From positions 2,108,001-2,172,000 of the forward strand of contig NZ_LT629742.1 in the NCBI RefSeq assembly GCF_900104895.1: DNA of 64,000 bases. Reading direction: 5' to 3'. A program made the position numbers and the translations under genes. The stretch is from Microterricola viridarii (GTDB lineage Bacteria > Actinomycetota > Actinomycetes > Actinomycetales > Microbacteriaceae). This document shows, piece after piece, positions 1 through 56,812 of this stretch (positions are counted from its first letter, which is position 1; the number at the start of each line of letters is the position of its first letter). The notes beneath the pieces are model-generated. The model searched no databases, was not told where the DNA came from, and saw only the letters and a program-made list of their open reading frames with translations.

Positions 1-1674
1 ACCGCCACCAGCGTCGAGTGGACGGTCGTCGGCAGCGAGGTCGAGGCGCTGCAGCTCGAGTTCACCTGGATCAAGGAATTCGACCCGCCGTTCAACGTCA
101 TGTTCAAGGACGACAAGTCCTACCCCTACCTCGCCGTCACCCTGGCCGATGAGGCGCCGCGCGCCCTCGTCACCCGCACCACCGGCATCAAGGGCGCCCG
201 CTACTTCGGGCCATACCCGAAGGTGTGGGCCGTCTACGACACCATCGAGCTGATGCTCAAGGCGTTCCCGATCCGCACCTGCAAGGACTCCGACTACAAG
301 CGGGCCATGCTCTCCGGCAAGCCGTGCTTCGCCGGGCAGATCGGCCGCTGCTTCGGCCCCTGCTCCGGCCTCGTCACGATCGAGGAGCACCGCAAGATCG
401 TGATGCGCTTCGTGAGCTTCATGGGCAGCCAGGACCGCAAGCTCATCAACGAGCTCACCCAGGAGATGAAGGCGGCATCCGCCGAGCTCAACTTCGAGCT
501 GGCCGCGAAGCGCCGCGACCAGGTGCTCGCGCTCGAGGCGGTGCTGGAGAAAAGCGCCGTCGTGCTGCGCGACTCCGTCGACATCGACCTGTTCGGCATC
601 GTGCACGACGAGCTGGCCGCCGCCGTGCAGCAGTTCGTGGTGCGCGGCGGGCGCATCCGCGGTGTGCGCGGCTGGATGGTCGACAAGGGCCTGGACGCCT
701 CCATGGGCGAGCTCGTCGACTCCATCGTGCAGACCGTCTACAACGAGTCCAATCCGCCGCCCCGGGAGATCGTGGTGCCAGAGCTGCCGGAGGACGCAGA
801 GGCCCTCGAGGAGTGGCTGCGCGGCCTCGCCGGCGCCAAGGTGGGGGTGCGTGCCGCCCAGCGCGGCGAGAAGGCCGCGCTGCTGGCCACCGCCACCCAG
901 AACGCCGCCCACTCGCTGATGCTCTACAAGACCCGGCGCAGCTCCGACTTCACCGCCAGGTCGAAGGCCCTCGAAGACATCCAGGAGGCGCTCGGGATGA
1001 CGGAGGCGCCGCTGCGGATGGAGTGCTACGACGTCTCGCACCTCGGCGGCACCAACATCGTCGCCAGCATGGTCGTGTTCGAGGACGGCCTGCCGCGCAA
1101 GGACCAGTACCGGCGCTTCAACATCCCGGAGTCCACCGACGACACCGACTCCATCTACCGCACGCTGAGCAGGCGCCTGGCCTACCTGCGTGAGGAGCCG
1201 GAGCCGGAGGCAGCGGAGGGCGGCGAGAAGCGGCGCAAGTTCAGCTACCCGCCGAACCTGCTCATTGTCGACGGCGGCCAGCCGCAGGTCGAGGCCGCCG
1301 CCCGGGCGCTCCGGGAGTCCGGCGTGCAGGGAATCCAGCTCTGCGGCATCGCCAAGCGCCTCGAGGAGATCTGGCTGCCCGATTCCGAGTATCCCGTCAT
1401 CCTGCCGCGCAACAGCGACGCCCTGTTCCTGTTCCAGCGCATCCGCGACGAGGCGCACCGCTTCGCGATCACCGCCCAGCGGGCCAGCCGCAAACGCGAC
1501 ATCGGCTCCGTTCTGGGCGAGGTGCCCGGTCTCGGGCCGGCGAGGGTGAAGGTGCTGCTCAAGCATTTCGGTTCCGTCGCACAGCTCAAACAGGCCACAG
1601 AGGAGCAGATTGCCGAGGTCCGGGGGGTCGGCCCCACCCTCGCGCAGGCGATCTATCGGCACTTGCGCTCCTGA
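1..1674 (+). CDS. uvrC: UvrABC excision nuclease subunit C, 5'-truncated by window edge
   Basis: Nucleotide excision repair endonuclease that makes the dual incisions around a lesion marked by UvrA/UvrB. The frame is open from base 1 without a start, so the gene begins upstream and part of the N-terminal GIY-YIG nuclease domain is missing; 557 codons are visible. A UVR motif for UvrB contact lies near visible residues 162-180 ([17 protein letters not shown]). The RNase H-like 5'-incision domain contains ECYDVSH near residue 341. A helix-hairpin-helix pair closes the protein ([18 protein letters not shown]). The first in-frame ATG at 100 is internal, because conserved UvrC sequence ([11 protein letters not shown]) precedes it. 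It is followed by rapZ and whiA, the usual actinobacterial order. Confidence 0.97.
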
Positions 1675-1737
1675 ACGGCTCCGACGCTCGGTAGGCTATA
1701 AGCCCACCAGTTCTTCTAGCGAAGGTGAGAATCTGCC

Positions 1738-2610
1738 ATGGCGGATGCCCGGCAGCACGAGATGCTGATCGTCACGGGAATGTCCGGAGCCGGTCGTTCG
1801 ACCGTTGCGAACGCCCTCGAGGACCTCGGTTGGTATGTCGTTGACAACCTGCCGCCGCAGATGCTGCGGCCGTTCGTGGACCTTGCCGGGCGTGCGGGGG
1901 CGAGCCTGCCCAAGATCGCGGCCGTCATCGACATCCGCGGCGGCGAGTTCTTCTCCGAGCTGCAGGACGCCATCCAGGAGCTCCGCAAGGGCACGGCGCT
2001 GCGCGTCGTCTTCCTCGACGCCTCCGACGAGGTGCTGGTGCGCCGCTTCGAGTCCGTGCGCCGGCCGCACCCGCTGCAGGGCGACGGCACGCTGCTCGAC
2101 GGCATCTCCGCCGAGCGAAACCGCATCGCCACCATCCGGGGCGCCAGCGACCTGATCATCGACACCTCTGGTTTGAACATCCACCAGCTGGCGACCGTCA
2201 CCCGGGAGCACTTCTCCGAGGTGGATGCCGTCGGCGTCAGCGTCACGCTCCTCAGCTTCGGCTTCAAGTACGGGGTGCCGGCCGACGCCGACCATGTCGC
2301 CGACGCCCGCTTCCTGCCCAATCCCTTCTGGATCCCAGAGCTCCGCGCTCAGACGGGGCTCGACAGCGATGTCGCCGCCTTCGTTCTGGAGCAGGCCGGT
2401 GCCCGGGAATTCCTCGCGCGCTACGCAGCCGCACTCGAGCCCGTGCTCGACGGCTACCAGCGCGAGAACAAACGTCACGTCACGATCGCCGTCGGTTGCA
2501 CCGGCGGCAAGCACCGCTCCGTCGCCATGGTGAAGGAGCTGTCGACACTGATCGGCGCCCTTCCCCGGGTGGCCGTGAGTGTGCGGCATCGAGACCTCGG
2601 ACGCGAATAG
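1738..2610 (+). CDS. rapZ: RapZ/YvcJ-family nucleotide-binding protein
   Basis: P-loop protein of the RapZ (YvcJ) family, 290 aa, the usual length. The Walker A motif GMSGAGRS is at about residues 14-21. The conserved C-terminal segment [11 protein letters not shown] starts near residue 252. In E. coli RapZ is an adaptor that delivers the GlmZ sRNA to RNase E; the actinobacterial role is less clear. The ATG at 1738 follows a purine-rich site (GAAGGTGAG). A TANNNT -10 (TAGGCT, 1692-1697) sits upstream, so it may have its own promoter apart from uvrC. In many Gram-positives a yvcK (CofD-like) gene follows; here whiA follows after 58 bp. Confidence 0.95.
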
Positions 2611-2668
2611 GCGGTCGCACCCGGCCGCCTGTCCACGCCTTTTGGCACTGCAAAGAATGGAAACACGA

Positions 2669-3649
2669 TTGGCTCTCACCGCCGACGTAAAAGATGAACT
2701 CTCCGTGGTCGAGGTCCCCAAGACCACGGTCCGAGCCGCCGAGCTCGCCACGATCCTGCGCTTCTCCGGGGGTCTGCACATGATCTCCGGGCGCATCGCC
2801 GTCGAGTCCGAACTGGACTCCACCGTGCTCGCGCGCCGTGTGCGCAAAGACCTCGCCGAACTCTACGGTGTGCGCAGCAGCGTCTCCGTGATCCCGGCCT
2901 CCGGCCTCCGCCGCACCAACAACTACCTCGTCCGCGTGCTGGAAGGCGGCGAGACGCTCGCCCGCCAGACCGGCCTGCTCGACGCCCGGCGCCGCCCCAT
3001 CCGCGGCCTGCCGAACCGCCTCACCACGGGATCGCGCGAGGAGATCGCAGCCGTCTGGCGCGGAGCGTTCCTGGCCGCCGGCACGCTGACCGATCCCGGT
3101 CGCTCCGCCGCCCTGGAGATCACCTGCCCGGGCAACGAGGCCGCCATGGCCCTCGTCGGCGCGGCCGGCCGGCTCGGTGTCGCCGCCAAGGCGCGCGAGG
3201 TGCGCGGCGTGCACCGCGTGGTCATCCGTGACGGCGACGCCATCAGCGCGATGCTCGTGCAGATGGGCGCGGAGCAGACCGTGCGCAACTGGGAGGAGCT
3301 GCGCCAGCGCCGCGAGGTGCGGGCCACCGCCAACCGCCTGGTCAACTTCGACGACGCCAACCTGCGCCGCAGCGCGCAGGCCGCCGTCGCCGCCTGTGCC
3401 CGCGTGGAGCGCGCCATGGAGATCCTCGGCTCCGACATCCCGGAGCACCTCAAGTACGCGGGGGAGCTGCGCCTGCGCTTCCGCGACTCCAGCCTGGACG
3501 AGCTCGGCCACCACGCCGAGCCGCCGATGACCAAGGACGCCGTCGCCGGCCGCATCCGTCGCCTGCTCGCCATGGCCGACAAGAAGGCCGCAGACCAGGG
3601 CATCCCCGGCACCGACGCGAACCTGCCCGCCGACCTCGACGAGGCCTAG
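2669..3649 (+). CDS. whiA: WhiA, sporulation/cell-division regulator family
   Basis: WhiA combines an N-terminal LAGLIDADG homing-endonuclease-like fold without nuclease activity and a C-terminal helix-turn-helix. In Streptomyces it acts with WhiB on division genes; in non-sporulating actinobacteria the role is thought to be in division or growth. I place the start at TTG 2669 ([11 protein letters not shown], 326 aa), which matches the family N-terminus and has GGAA just upstream. An ATG at 2657 would add four residues. The longer frame reading back into rapZ is not supported. The C-terminal part includes [25 protein letters not shown], shown here only as the HTH region; the protein ends shortly after it. 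Last of uvrC-rapZ-whiA. Confidence 0.94.
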
Positions 3650-3696
3650 GGGTTGGCCCTGAGGAAGATACTCGGTGCCTCGGAGGGTGCCGTGAT

Positions 3697-3702
3697 TAGA
3701 CT
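3697..3702 (+). promoter_or_regulatory. Candidate -10 element for sodA
   Basis: TAGACT fits the TANNNT actinobacterial -10 and lies 53 nt before the sodA ATG. No convincing -35 is seen. Sequence impression only. Confidence 0.3.
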
Positions 3703-3755
3703 GAAACGGTCGAAACCGGTCGCGACTCTCGCGGTCATGAAAGAGGAGACAATCA

Positions 3756-4382
3756 ATGGCTGAATACACCCTGCCAGCACTTGCCTATGACTACTCGGCG
3801 CTTGAGCCGAGCATCAGCGGCGCCATCATGGAGCTGCACCACGGCAAGCACCACCAGGCCTACGTGACCGGGGCGAACACCGCGCTCGCCCAGCTCGCCG
3901 AGGCGCGCGAGACCGGCAACCTGGCCAACGTCAACAAGCTGCAGAAGGATCTCGCGTTCAACCTCGGCGGCCACGTGAACCACTCCATCTTCTGGACCAA
4001 CATGTCCCCGAACGGTGGAGACAAGCCGGTCGGCGAGCTGGCCGCGGCCATCGATGACTTCTTCGGCTCCTTCGAGAAGTTCCAGGCGCACTTCACCGCC
4101 ACCGCACTCGGCGTGCAGGGCTCCGGCTGGTCCGTCCTGGCCTGGGACGCGATCGGCCAGCAGCTGATCATCCAGCAGTTCTTCGACCAGCAGGCCAACT
4201 TCGCTGCCGGAACCGTCCCGCTGCTCATGCTCGACGTCTGGGAGCACGCGTACTACCTGGACTACCGCAACGTGCGTGCCGACTACGTCAAGGCGTTCTG
4301 GAACATCGTGGATTGGTCGAACGTGCAGTCACGCTTCGACACTGCGCGAGTGAAGACCGAAGGCCTGCTGCTACTCTCATAG
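3756..4382 (+). CDS. sodA: Superoxide dismutase, Mn/Fe type
   Basis: Converts superoxide to hydrogen peroxide and oxygen in the cytoplasm. It has 208 aa, typical for the family. All four metal ligands are visible: His28 (ELHHGKHH), His76 ([10 protein letters not shown]), Asp160 and His164 ([11 protein letters not shown]). Residues around QGSGW (121-125) favour a manganese enzyme, but Mn and Fe cannot be separated safely by eye. The RBS GAGGAGA precedes the ATG. It stands alone between whiA and gap, with a 9-bp-stem hairpin just after its stop. Confidence 0.96.
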
Positions 4383-5486
<1,104 letters not shown>

Positions 5487-5496
5487 GCGGTAGGGC

Positions 5497-6708
5497 GTGA
5501 CGCTTCGCACGATCGATTCCCTGGGCCCACTCGCCGGCAAGCACGTCATCGTGCGCTGCGACCTGAACGTCCCGCTGAAGGACGGTCAGATCACTGATGA
5601 CGGTCGTGTGCGAGCGTCACTGCCCACCCTCACCGCACTGCTCTCTCAGGGGGCCCGGGTGAGCGTTGTCTCGCACCTCGGGCGCCCTGACGGCGCACCG
5701 GACGAGCGCTACAGCCTCGCCCCCGTTGCGGCCCGCCTCGGCGAGCTGCTCGGCAAGGACGTCGCCTTCGCCAGCGACACCGTCGGCGCCTCGGCGCAGG
5801 CCGCTGTCGCCGGCCTCGGCGACGGCGACATCGCCGTGCTGGAGAACCTCCGCTTCAACCCGGGCGAGACCTCCAAGGTCGCCGAGGAGCGCGCCGCCTT
5901 CGCGGCACAGCTCGCCGCCTTCGGCGACGCCTTCGTCTCCGACGGCTTCGGCGTCGTCCACCGCAAGCAGGCCAGCGTCTACGAGCTCGCGGAACTGCTC
6001 CCGAGCGCTGCCGGCCTCCTCATCGTGGCCGAGCTCGAGGTGCTGGACCGCCTCACCGAGACCCCGGAGCGCCCCTACGCGGTCGTGCTCGGCGGCTCGA
6101 AGGTGTCCGACAAGCTCGGCGTGATCGGGCACCTGCTGCCCCGCGTCGACACCCTCCTCATCGGCGGCGGCATGCTCTTCACCTTCCTCGCGGCCCTCGG
6201 CCACAAGGTCGGCTCCAGCCTGCTCGAGGCCGACCAGATCGACACCGTCACGGGCTACCTGGCCGAGGCCGAGCGCCTCGGCGTGCAGATCATTCTGCCG
6301 ACGGATGTCGTCGTCGCCTCCAAGTTCGGTGCTGACGCCGAGGTGCTCGTGCGCCCGGCCGACGGCATCGAGGACACGCCGTTCGGCGCGTCCGGCCTGG
6401 GCCTGGACATCGGACCGGAGACGGCTGCGCGGTTCGCCGACGTCATCCGCTCGTCCAAGACCGTCTTCTGGAACGGCCCGATGGGCGTGTTCGAACTCGC
6501 ACCATTCGCGGCAGGCACCCGTGCCGTCGCGCAAGCACTGACCGAGGTCGACGGCCTCAGCGTTGTCGGCGGTGGCGATTCCGCCGCAGCCGTCCGCGCA
6601 CTCAATTTCAACGATGACCAGTTTGGTCACATTTCTACCGGCGGCGGCGCCAGCCTCGAGTTCCTCGAGGGCAAGCGCCTCCCCGGGCTGGAGGTACTCG
6701 GATGGTAG
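5497..6708 (+). CDS. pgk: Phosphoglycerate kinase
   Basis: Transfers phosphate from 1,3-bisphosphoglycerate to ADP. GTG start 10 bp after gap, preceded by GGCGGTAGGG. It has 403 aa. Substrate-binding segment [10 protein letters not shown] is near residue 20 and SHLGRP near residue 59. The nucleotide-binding C-terminal lobe ends with the typical GGGDSAAAV and [13 protein letters not shown] motifs. The 3' end overlaps tpiA by 7 bp, which implies translational coupling. Confidence 0.97.
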
Positions 6709-7490
6709 TGAACAGAACCCCGCTCATCGCGGGCAACTGGAAGATGAACCTGGATCACCTCCAGGCCATCGCGTTTGTGCAGAAGCTGGCCTGGAACCTG
6801 AGCGAGGCCAAGCACGACTTCGCCGCCGTCGAGGTGGCGGTGTTCCCGCCGTTCACCGACCTGCGCAGCGTGCAGACCCTGGTCTCCGCCGACAAGCTGC
6901 CGCTGGCCTTCGGCGCGCAGGATGTCTCCGAGCACGTCTCCGGTGCATACACCGGTGAGATCTCGGCCGCATTCCTCGCCCAGCTCGAGTGCCGCTACGT
7001 CATCATCGGCCACTCCGAGCGGCGCACGCTGCACGGTGAGACCGACGAACAGGTCGCCGCGAAGTCGGCTGCGGCGCTCGCCCACAACATCGTGCCGATC
7101 ATCTGCGTCGGCGAGACCGCAGAGGACCTCGAGAAGCACGGCCCGAGCGCCGTTCCCGTCGCCCAGCTGCGCGCGGCCCTCGCCGGTGTGACCGGTGCGG
7201 CCGACATCGTCGTCGCCTACGAGCCCGTCTGGGCGATCGGCTCCGGCCAGGCGGCAACGCCCGAGCAGGCCGAGCAGGTCGCGGCCGCGCTCCGCGGCGT
7301 GCTCGCCGAGGTTCTCGGCGAGGATGTCGCCGGCAAGACGCGCATCCTCTACGGCGGTTCCGTGAAGTCGGGCAACATCGCCGGTTTCATGCGCGAGCCG
7401 AACGTCGACGGCGCCCTCGTGGGCGGCGCGAGCCTCGACATCGCCGAGTTCGCGGCCATCAGCCGCTTCCAGCAGCACGTCGGTCTCTAA
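6702..7490 (+). CDS. tpiA: Triosephosphate isomerase
   Basis: Interconverts dihydroxyacetone phosphate and glyceraldehyde-3-phosphate. TIM barrel of 262 aa. Catalytic residues are visible: Lys14 (GNWKMN), His near 103 (IGHSERR) and Glu near 173 (AYEPVWAIG). The phosphate-gripping LYGGSVK and VGGASL loops are near the C-terminus. The ATG at 6702 lies inside the pgk end; GTG at 6708 is an alternative only two residues shorter. Third gene of the glycolytic operon. Confidence 0.97.
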
Positions 7491-7952: not shown

Positions 7953-8318
7953 ATGGCATCAGGCGGCAGTGCAATTCGGGGATCGCGCGTTGGCGCCGGC
8001 CCCATGGGCGAACAGGACCGCGGCTACCACGCGGACCGTGTGGCCATTTCCTACTGGGACGCGCTCGGCAACGAGACGATCCGGTACTTCTCGGCCACCC
8101 TGCCGGACGAGGAGATCCCCGTCACCATCGACTCCCCGCAGTCGGGGCTGCCGGCCGGGCGCGACAAGGAGAACCCTCCGTCTGTCGCCAAGCTCGAGCC
8201 GTACAAGACGCACCTCGCCTACGTGAAGGAACGTCGCACGGAGGAGGAGGCAGAGCAGCTCCTCGAGGAGGCTCTCGAGCAGCTCCGCGTGCGCCGCGGC
8301 AAGGTCGTCGCGAGCTAG
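7953..8318 (+). CDS. rbpA: RNA polymerase-binding protein RbpA
   Basis: Actinobacterial RNA polymerase and sigma-A binding factor that stabilises the open promoter complex. It has 121 aa. The N-terminal tail contains AIRGSRVG, followed by a core domain and a charged sigma-interacting C-terminal helix (THLAYVKERRTEEEAEQL). The core has no cysteines, so the zinc site found in some RbpA proteins is absent. The RBS GCGGAGG precedes the ATG. Monocistronic between the secG and rbpA terminators. Confidence 0.93.
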   Translation: MASGGSAIRGSRVGAGPMGEQDRGYHADRVAISYWDALGNETIRYFSATLPDEEIPVTIDSPQSGLPAGRDKENPPSVAKLEPYKTHLAYVKERRTEEEAEQLLEEALEQLRVRRGKVVAS

Positions 8319-8330
8319 TCTCCACCCAGG

Positions 8331-8371
8331 CAACAGAAAAGCCCCAGCCATCGGCTGGGGCTTTTCTGTTG
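8331..8371. terminator. 19-bp-stem bidirectional terminator (copy 1)
   Basis: Perfect 19-bp stem with a 3-nt loop (ATC); left arm begins CAACAGAAAAGCCCC. A run of A on one side and T on the other makes it suitable for both strands. It ends rbpA and is identical to the copy at 9297-9337 that ends pgl. Confidence 0.9.
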
Positions 8372-8378
8372 CCCACTG

Positions 8379-8483
8379 TCAGTAAGACGGGGCGATGAGC
8401 GCTTCCGGCACTTCGGCGGCCGCGTCGCGGTCGACGAAGAAGACGGTGCGCTTGCGGCCCTTGATGCCGCCGGCGGGGACCTC
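8379..8483 (-). pseudogene. Duplicated 3' fragment of pgl
   Basis: Minus-strand remnant encoding the last 34 residues of 6-phosphogluconolactonase (ending EALIAPSY) and the stop. Nothing of pgl precedes it on the minus strand beyond 8483. The reading frame is intact, and the three substitutions against the complete pgl are silent. This suggests it came from a functional allele rather than from drift of a dead copy; with only three sites this is weak support. Confidence 0.85.
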
Positions 8484-8633
8484 CTCTCAACTCCGGTGGC
8501 ACACTCTCGACCGGATCAGGTACCGGAAGCCTTCGCCGCTGCACAGGCCATTGCCCTGGTCGCACGGATCGGCCGCGGCAACTTCCGCCTCGTCGACAAG
8601 CTGCGGACGGCATTACTAGGGTTCTGGGTATGA
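8484..8633 (+). pseudogene. C-terminal fragment of a transposition-helper-type AAA ATPase
   Basis: An open frame running into TGA 8631-8633 reads, near its end, EAFAAAQAIALVARIGRGNFRLVDKL. This resembles the C-terminal helical part of TniB/IstB-like or related helper ATPases (typically A-ARITGGNFRL). No Walker motifs and no start are present; the frame emerges directly from the repeat border. I read it as the truncated end of a mobile-element gene. The match is from memory of the family and rests on about 25 residues. Confidence 0.4.
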
Positions 8634-8959
8634 CGACAACCTTCGAAGGGGCCTTCCAGTCATGGCGCGATGCGCCGTTTCCACGGGGCAGTTCACGAGA
8701 CCCTGCGGATGAGGTCCACGCGAACCTTGCGCTTTATGACACATGGGTCGCCGAATCGGTCGTGCCATTCATGGACAGAGGAATCTGGCAGCCTGCTGTT
8801 CCCGACGTGCTCGGTGCGCTCGAGAACCTCGGCGGGCAGGTCCAAGAGCTGCGCCGCGCCGGAACAGAGGATCTGGAAGCACTCTCCGCCTACCTGGCTT
8901 ATGCGGACCTACTCAGAACGGTCTATCGAGCATTTCTTCGGAGAGGTGGGAGAGTGTGA
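8630..8959 (+). CDS. Hypothetical protein in pgl islet
   Basis: 109 aa, no recognised domain. The ATG overlaps the stop of the preceding ATPase remnant (ATGA), so it was once its translationally coupled partner. The sequence looks like a real globular, mostly helical protein: hydrophobic positions are regularly spaced, it is rich in Trp, Ala and Leu, and the N-terminus is FQSWRDAPFPRGSSRDPADE. No signal peptide or membrane segment. Base composition is visibly less GC-rich than the neighbours. It could be accessory cargo of a mobile element; the function is unknown. Confidence 0.6.
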   Translation: MTTTFEGAFQSWRDAPFPRGSSRDPADEVHANLALYDTWVAESVVPFMDRGIWQPAVPDVLGALENLGGQVQELRRAGTEDLEALSAYLAYADLLRTVYRAFLRRGGRV

Positions 8960-9296
8960 TCTCTAGGTTCAACCGGTCATGTCCCGCGGAGTGGTGGAGG
9001 TTCTCAACACCGTGCGCGGCAGCGGTCTGAGTATGCCGCGCCAAGTTCGCGGAGAGGAATCTCCTCCTCGACCGAGATGGCATTCTCGTGGCACCCAACT
9101 GGTCGGGCGTTCGCGCAACGGGTTGTGGCGTTCAACGATGCGAGGTCCGCGCTGAACGCGAGGCAAGCGAAGAGGGCCCCAACAGAGCTGTGTCGGGGCC
9201 CGGAATGGGATCTAATCCTTCGACTCCGAAACAGCCAAACCGCGCGGCCAGAAGTCCGCCACTCGAACACACCGTTACAACTGGTCTCACCATCCG
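8960..9296. other. Non-coding remainder of the islet
   Basis: No convincing gene. The short frames here have mixed composition and no RBS. The only structured element is an imperfect hairpin at 9174-9201 (GGGCCCCAACA / TGTCGGGGCCC, 10 of 11 pairs, 6-nt loop), possibly an old terminator. Confidence 0.5.
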
Positions 9297-9337
9297 CAAC
9301 AGAAAAGCCCCAGCCATCGGCTGGGGCTTTTCTGTTG
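9297..9337. terminator. 19-bp-stem terminator after pgl (copy 2)
   Basis: Same sequence as 8331-8371. It lies 8 nt beyond the pgl stop on the minus strand and ends the pentose phosphate operon. Confidence 0.9.
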
Positions 9338-9449
9338 CCCACTGTCAGTAGGACGGGGCGATGAGCGCCTCCGGCACTTCGGCGGCCGCGTCGCGGTCGA
9401 CGAAGAAAACGGTGCGCTTGCGGCCCTTGATGCCGCCGGCGGGGACCTC
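9297..9449. repeat. 153-bp direct repeat, proximal copy (within intact pgl end)
   Basis: Partner of 8331-8483, offset by 966 bp. It covers the terminator 9297-9337 and the last 35 codons (including stop) of the intact pgl. Confidence 0.95.
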
Positions 9450-10115
9450 GTCGCGGCTGGCCCCGGCCAGTGCCAGTCCGAGCGCTGGCGCCTTGTCGGA
9501 GCCGGCGAGCACCATCCACACCCGGTCGGAGTGGTTCAGCACCGGGCGGGTCAGGCTGAGCCGCTCCGCGGGGGGCTTCGGCGAGTTGCGCACAGCGATC
9601 ACCGTGCGGTCCTCGACCTGGATGCCGGAGCGGTGCGGGAACAGCGAGGCGATGTGCCCGTCGGGCCCGACGCCGAGGAAGGTGATGTCCAGGCGCGGCA
9701 GTTCCGCGCCGTCCTCCGCGTGCGCGGCAAGTTCGGCGGCGTAGTGCTCGGCGGCTTCGTCGAGCCCCAGCGGTCCGTCCGACGCCGGGAAGCGGTGGAT
9801 GTTGCCGGCCGGGATGTCGATGTGGCAGAGCAGTGCGTCGAAGGCCTGCTGGTCGTTGCGCTCGGCGTCGCCGGCCGGCAGCCAGCGCTCGTCGCCCCAC
9901 CAGAAGTGGATCCGCGACCAGTCCAGGGTGTCCCTGGCGGCCGACTCGTTGACGGCGGCGAGCACGCCGGAGCCCATCGATCCGCCGGTCAGCACGATGT
10001 TGGCGCTGCCCAGATCGTCGAGGATGTCGAGCGTCTTGGTGATGAAGCGGGCGGCGACGGAGCCGGCCAGCGCCTGCTTGTCTGGGTGCACCAGCACCCG
10101 GCGCTCGTTGGTCAT
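9345..10115 (-). CDS. pgl: 6-phosphogluconolactonase
   Basis: Hydrolyses 6-phosphogluconolactone to 6-phosphogluconate. 256 aa from ATG 10115, which overlaps the opcA stop by ATGA; the longer open frame upstream runs through opcA and is not used. Family motifs: LTGGSMG near residue 44, WGDERWLP near 74 and GVGPDGHIASLFP near 150. Last gene of tkt-tal-pgi-zwf-opcA-pgl. Its 3' end is duplicated at 8379-8483. Confidence 0.95.
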   Translation of the reverse strand: MTNERRVLVHPDKQALAGSVAARFITKTLDILDDLGSANIVLTGGSMGSGVLAAVNESAARDTLDWSRIHFWWGDERWLPAGDAERNDQQAFDALLCHIDIPAGNIHRFPASDGPLGLDEAAEHYAAELAAHAEDGAELPRLDITFLGVGPDGHIASLFPHRSGIQVEDRTVIAVRNSPKPPAERLSLTRPVLNHSDRVWMVLAGSDKAPALGLALAGASRDEVPAGGIKGRKRTVFFVDRDAAAEVPEALIAPSY

Positions 10116-52317: not shown

Positions 52318-52393
52318 GGGTCTGTGGCGCAGCTGGTAGCGCACCTGCATGGCATGCAGGGGGTCGGGAGTTCGAGTCTCCCCAGATCCACCA
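52318..52393 (+). tRNA. tRNA-Ala (GGC), copy 1
   Basis: 76 nt with encoded CCA. Acceptor GGGTCTG pairs with CAGATCC and includes the G3-U70 pair that marks alanine tRNAs. The anticodon arm CCTGC-ATGGCAT-GCAGG gives anticodon GGC. T arm with TTCGAGT. It has its own promoter-like leader and terminator. Confidence 0.97.
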
Positions 52394-52511: not shown

Positions 52512-52587
52512 GGGTCTGTGGCGCAGCTGGTAGCGCACCTGCATGGCATGCAGGGGGTCGGGAGTTCGAGTCTCCCCAGATCCACCA
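52512..52587 (+). tRNA. tRNA-Ala (GGC), copy 2
   Basis: Identical in sequence to copy 1, 194 bp downstream. Upstream it has the same GTAGTA and TCGGGAAC leader elements; anticodon GGC. Confidence 0.97.
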
Positions 52588-56736: not shown

Positions 56737-56812
56737 GGGTCTGTGGCGCAGCTGGTAGCGCACCTGCATGGCATGCAGGGGGTCGGGAGTTCGAGTCTCC
56801 CCAGATCCACCA
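56737..56812 (+). tRNA. tRNA-Ala (GGC), copy 3
   Basis: Same 76-nt tRNA sequence as copies 1 and 2, 4.15 kb downstream and 59 bp after the PI-PLC-like gene. The leader has GTAGTA, GTTGCTTCCGA and ATCGGGAAC elements. Confidence 0.97.

Follow-up and report, generated by a model that had tools for sequence, protein, structure and literature searches.

The closest described counterpart of the locus analysed here is prophage e14 of Escherichia coli K-12 which, in the available part of PMC6379469, separates 163 bp of icd and supplies a new 3' end. Mobile arrays of orphan immunity genes are described for Bacteroidales, and the position directly downstream of an Rhs effector is given as the place of its immunity gene (accessible text of PMC10539506). 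For the orphan immunity genes of Vibrio, homology-facilitated illegitimate recombination is discussed, and called rare, in the accessible sections of PMC5361080.

A stretch of 64,000 nucleotides from Microterricola viridarii (contig NZ_LT629742.1, positions 2,108,001 to 2,172,000; "the window") was analysed, in which the convergent genes rbpA (plus strand) and pgl (minus strand) are separated by an islet bounded by direct repeats. In its form, with the 3' end and terminator of a gene duplicated, the gene kept and the left edge at a hairpin, the islet resembles the target-rebuilding elements, e14 being the best match. As at icd, insofar as the available account describes it, the putative element lies at the 3' end of a core metabolic gene, the end of which is directly repeated while the gene is intact. 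The differences are that no integrase or phage genes were found in the islet, that the target is pgl, that approximately 0.8 kb is left and that the mechanism is one which we infer. The islet also contains an intact small gene with no partner, a relative of which follows an Rhs-core ORF, and in this it is like the orphan immunity genes of Rhs and type VI loci in the portions of PMC10539506 and PMC5361080 at hand. Unlike those, it lies in a gap between housekeeping genes and does not follow an effector cluster, it occurs in an actinobacterium, and the genome gave no match to the RHS_repeat family at E <= 0.001 (2 of 14 control genomes were positive). With the Bacteroidales arrays, as far as the accessible description goes, it shares mobile DNA with an immunity gene and no toxin; it differs in having a single gene, no recombinase that could be found, and no array. 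These arrays go by the name rAID and possess a tyrosine recombinase. The features of the islet and its flanks are as follows, the two repeat copies being named L and R.

7953 to 8318, plus strand: rbpA, the intact left flank (ORF; Pfam RbpA PF13397, E 1.1e-29)
8329 to 8373, no strand: terminator hairpin at copy L, 21-bp perfect stem and 3-nt loop (fold)
8330 to 8483, pgl end on minus strand: repeat copy L, terminator hairpin and displaced pgl end (3 mismatches to R)
8523 to 8598, plus strand: 3' remnant of a transposon-type AAA ATPase gene (plasmid and family-genome matches)
8630 to 8959, plus strand: intact 109-aa ORF, probable orphan immunity gene (one relative behind an Rhs-core ORF)
8975 to 9073, minus strand: IS256-family terminal ~100 bp, transposase C-terminus and end (family genomes, plasmid)
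9074 to 9295, no strand: unassigned DNA of ~220 bp with a short hairpin at 9174-9201 (fold)
9296 to 9449, no strand: repeat copy R, terminator and the present 3' end of pgl (3 mismatches to L)
9345 to 10115, minus strand: pgl, 6-phosphogluconolactonase, intact, 256 aa (Pfam PF01182, E 1.8e-66)

The direct repeat had been described, in a reading made from the letters alone (the sequence-only reading), as two copies 966 bp apart with three mismatches, all silent in the pgl frame. Alignment and translation bore this out, the length of 153 being corrected to an exact block of 154 bp. Each copy comprises the final 34 codons of pgl with the stop codon, together with the terminator hairpin between rbpA and pgl; the 34 residues are identical in translation. 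The terminator, which that reading had placed in the repeat, does lie inside it except for the left base of the outermost stem pair of copy L, which at 8329 is one base outside. Beyond the 154-bp block, similarity is at chance level on either side, as judged by comparing anchored scores with those of random segments from the window (p about 0.14 and 0.78). A 172-nt repeat family was rejected as an over-extension, its flanking similarity being no better than chance. The edges of the repeat are functional: the left edge is at most one base from the base of the hairpin, and stop, terminator and reading frame are preserved, so that the direct repeats restore the target gene in the manner of a genomic island. 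Left of copy L the DNA is continuous with rbpA as in Microterricola pindariensis. Between the copies lie 812 bp with a GC content of 61.9% against 69.4% for the window, in line with the lower GC noted earlier, and this interior occurs once in the genome, which is one contig of 3.84 Mb.

Elsewhere in the window, three tRNA-Ala (GGC) genes were identified, two in tandem (52318-52393 and 52512-52587) and the third 4.2 kb on (56737-56812). Each sits in one of three similar 166-nt stretches, the outer two matching the middle one at 80 and 90%, and the stretch between the copies has long ORFs and 71% GC.

Empty sites with a single copy of the repeat, which had been proposed as support for an insertion at the pgl 3' end followed by decay, were found without the islet in all four congeners searched (4/4) and give the support expected of them; such a site in relatives is a further mark of an island. 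In the closest congener, Microterricola pindariensis PON 10 (G004), the single copy measures 154 bp from end to end, with the flanks joined and no extra base. The pgl protein of this organism is 100% identical, and two stretches of flanking DNA aligned with it show 98.7% and 97.6% identity. The comparison indicates that the islet is an insertion in the lineage of the window, with a gain of 966 bp; loss in the four congeners is the less parsimonious alternative.

The origin of the second pgl end was approached by comparing both copies with the congeners. Relative to G004, copy L differs at 7 sites and copy R at 6 (counted by eye), and L and R differ from each other at 3 (alignment). One substitution common to L and R occurs in none of the four congeners. 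Two more shared changes, next to the stop codon, are missing in G001 and G004, and no other congener sequence extends to those alignment columns. At the three sites where the copies differ, the private state is in L twice and in R once. The copies appear closest to each other, which points to the lineage's own pgl or that of a conspecific strain as the source and hardly to another species. The earlier proposal of a replacement end from another strain is tenable in this narrower sense, with a conspecific donor; a donor of another species is unlikely and was rejected because of the changes shared by L and R. The silence of the three mismatches, also put forward earlier, is correct for all three and is a weak argument, since the chance that two random changes in L, the displaced copy, are each silent or non-coding is 0.24-0.28, about one in four.

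Judged by similarity, the islet is a mosaic of an ATPase 3' end, an intact 109-aa ORF and approximately 100 bp of an IS256-family end. Positions 8523-8598 match the C-terminal end of AAA ATPases in 35 of 72,556 plasmid records (E <= 0.01), 20 of them from Clavibacter, with 23 annotated as AAA family ATPase and 12 without an annotated gene. Short matches were present in family genomes and a full-length relative at locus L065, and the truncated transposon-type ATPase of the sequence-only reading is thereby upheld. The IS256 end (~8975-9073) is absent from that reading. Most of its family-genome matches begin at 8974-8976, some a few bases either side; in most loci read they coincide with the 3' end of a transposase ORF, and one match on a plasmid carries the annotation IS256 family transposase. 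What is present is ~100 bp of one end, not a complete transposase with both ends, and Transposase_mut gave no match in the genome at E <= 0.001 (6 of 14 control genomes positive). No convincing relatives of 9074-9295 were found in phages, plasmids or family genomes, and searches of the islet DNA against phages, and a near search of plasmids, gave nothing useful. A search for integrase families among islet ORFs (3 against Pfam, 4 against PHROGs) gave no match; such a gene may have been lost from the islet.

The 109-aa ORF had been called an orphan; the ORF itself was confirmed, but one clear relative exists, with 51% identity over 102 residues (E 1.3e-29), in a single genome of another actinobacterial family (G485, locus L154). 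At E <= 0.001, the ORF found only itself in 398 family genomes and this one relative in 394 class genomes, while a two-sequence profile found only the genome of the window among 326 phylum genomes, a sample which may or may not include G485. No relative was found in plasmids, phages or viral contigs. Three weak matches in family genomes (E 0.005-0.009, 44-48% over 34-46 residues) were set aside.

The relative in G485, taken from the only in-frame start found nearby, starts two bases downstream of the stop codon of an ORF with Rhs_assc_core (TIGR03696, E 2.4e-9). The C-terminus of the latter had no Pfam match and no toxin family was found; we infer from the Rhs core that it may end in a toxin. 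A tyrosine recombinase (PF00589, E 7.5e-32) is encoded 4.6 kb from this locus on the same 8.6-kb contig, and the one pgl match of G485 is on another contig. Homology to a toxin-paired gene, by which orphan immunity genes are recognised, is thus provided by one relative at 51% identity, and on this relative the 109-aa ORF is probably an orphan immunity gene. Its being the single relative counts against this assignment, as do the lack of any matching family model (Pfam, PHROGs, NCBIfam) and of a PDB fold at E 0.001 (81 at E 10; the model was a low-confidence four-helix one, mean pLDDT 68). Identity between the ORF and its relative by codon position is 62, 69 and 25% (100 aligned codons), as for a protein under constraint; the pattern is silent on selection since insertion because synonymous change is saturated. 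A possible trace of the last codons of a neighbouring toxin-like ORF before the window ORF was inspected by eye and dropped.

The survey of pgl covered the best 80 of 296 named loci. In all 80, rbpA adjoins pgl within the fetched stretch, and in 19 the gap exceeds 200 bp. The sequence-only reading had proposed a search for the repeat unit at pgl elsewhere and for larger, integrase-bearing elements at the same spot. A second pgl C-terminus was found in 0 of these 80 loci (tblastn, 50 residues, E <= 1e-3, without a positive control), and inspection by eye of the 20 longest gaps (199 to 2368 bp) revealed no integrase; these gaps contain unrelated DNA including small unknown ORFs (names by reading). 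Short weak self-matches were present in 5 of these 20, the longest being 40 nt at 80% (E 0.005) at L088, where the gap holds a FAD-monooxygenase-like gene (named by reading). Searches with a 51-aa pgl C-terminus gave no relative among viral contigs, by a method that finds close relatives only, and none in 50,697 phage records; among 72,556 plasmid records they matched one, in an annotated pgl. The rbpA-pgl gap accepts insertions, and an integrase-type element at pgl, or another element of the present kind at the same site, was not seen in the loci surveyed. Among the papers listed for pgl as an integration site, none contains the word 6-phosphogluconolactonase, which is not proof of absence, and among those listed for Microterricola viridarii none is on its genome, judged by titles.

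At L129 (5765-7302), in Naasia sp. SYSU D00057, an IS110-like transposase gene lies between rbpA and pgl (family by reading). Three Leifsonia genomes (L098, L102, L104) have similar small ORFs of no known function between pgl and rbpA (by eye), and at L098 there are short tandem-like repeats around a stretch reading as N. In another genus (L151, genome G021, about 1341-7256), ~6 kb of ABC-transporter-like and other genes separate pgl and rbpA (by reading), with no copy of the pgl end found in this gap.

The explanation leading at present, at somewhat less than an even chance, is that the islet is the decayed remnant of a mobile segment which entered the pgl 3' end by e14-like site-specific exchange. 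By supplying or duplicating the final 34 codons, the stop codon and the terminator, the segment would have kept pgl whole while the old end was pushed to the rbpA side. The exchange would have been of the kind made by e14 in icd, with an attachment site carrying a same-species pgl end. Recombination genes and most of the cargo would then have been lost, leaving the ATPase stub, the IS256 end and one intact gene. The latter would probably be an orphan immunity gene guarding against an Rhs-type toxin from competing bacteria, and the protection it may afford could be why the ORF has stayed open. A mobile segment is favoured by the empty sites in 4/4 congeners, the functional repeat edges, the mobile origin of the interior, the proximity of the cargo's relative to an Rhs_assc_core ORF and a tyrosine recombinase, and the e14 precedent. 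Against site-specific exchange count the lack of an integrase in the tested islet ORFs, of a second pgl C-terminus in the loci surveyed and of a phage with a pgl end, and the single annotated pgl among the plasmid records. Against an element-borne end counts the fact that the changes shared by L and R are also expected from simple in-place duplication.

Since neither a recombinase nor sister elements were found, recombination without an integrase stays close behind and is a distinct possibility. Incoming DNA with a conspecific pgl end would have added foreign DNA and a second end in one step, either as a circle through one homologous crossover of the Campbell type or through homology-facilitated illegitimate recombination. 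Such a mechanism is described, in the available portions of PMC3240628 and PMC5361080, the latter calling it rare. It would account for the changes in L and R not seen in congeners and for an interior made up of unrelated fragments, and the gap in relatives takes unrelated inserts without a long repeat (L088, L129, G021; by reading); it does not predict a repeat ending at the base of a hairpin. Improbable by comparison is a duplication in tandem of a longer piece of chromosome with mobile DNA at its end, the first copy then mostly deleted and a pgl stub fused to mobile DNA. The copies are of the same lineage and the stub breaks off at 8483, with about 40 bases between it and the ATPase similarity, both as this would require; the mobile DNA occurs once in the genome, however, so that loss of its source copy is needed as well. 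An assembly error or collapsed repeat, with nothing in its favour besides the repeat itself, is very improbable given the one-contig genome, the three differences between the copies, the distinct junctions and the interior found once.

To return to site-specific exchange, its furthest-reaching form is that the pgl 3' end and terminator are the true attachment site of an undescribed actinobacterial integrative element, which would carry replacement pgl ends and move immunity genes between strains; this is unlikely. The islet is real, lineage-specific and within the known kinds of genomic scar. Beyond the sequence-only reading, the analysis gives the ORF a probable identity, recognises the IS256 end, documents the empty sites and traces both repeat copies to the same lineage. 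For now this is one decayed case in one genome, and its value is mainly that of good annotation. If confirmed, pgl would join the protein-coding genes which serve as insertion targets and are rebuilt by incoming DNA, and the islet would represent a captured actinobacterial immunity gene placed outside any toxin locus.
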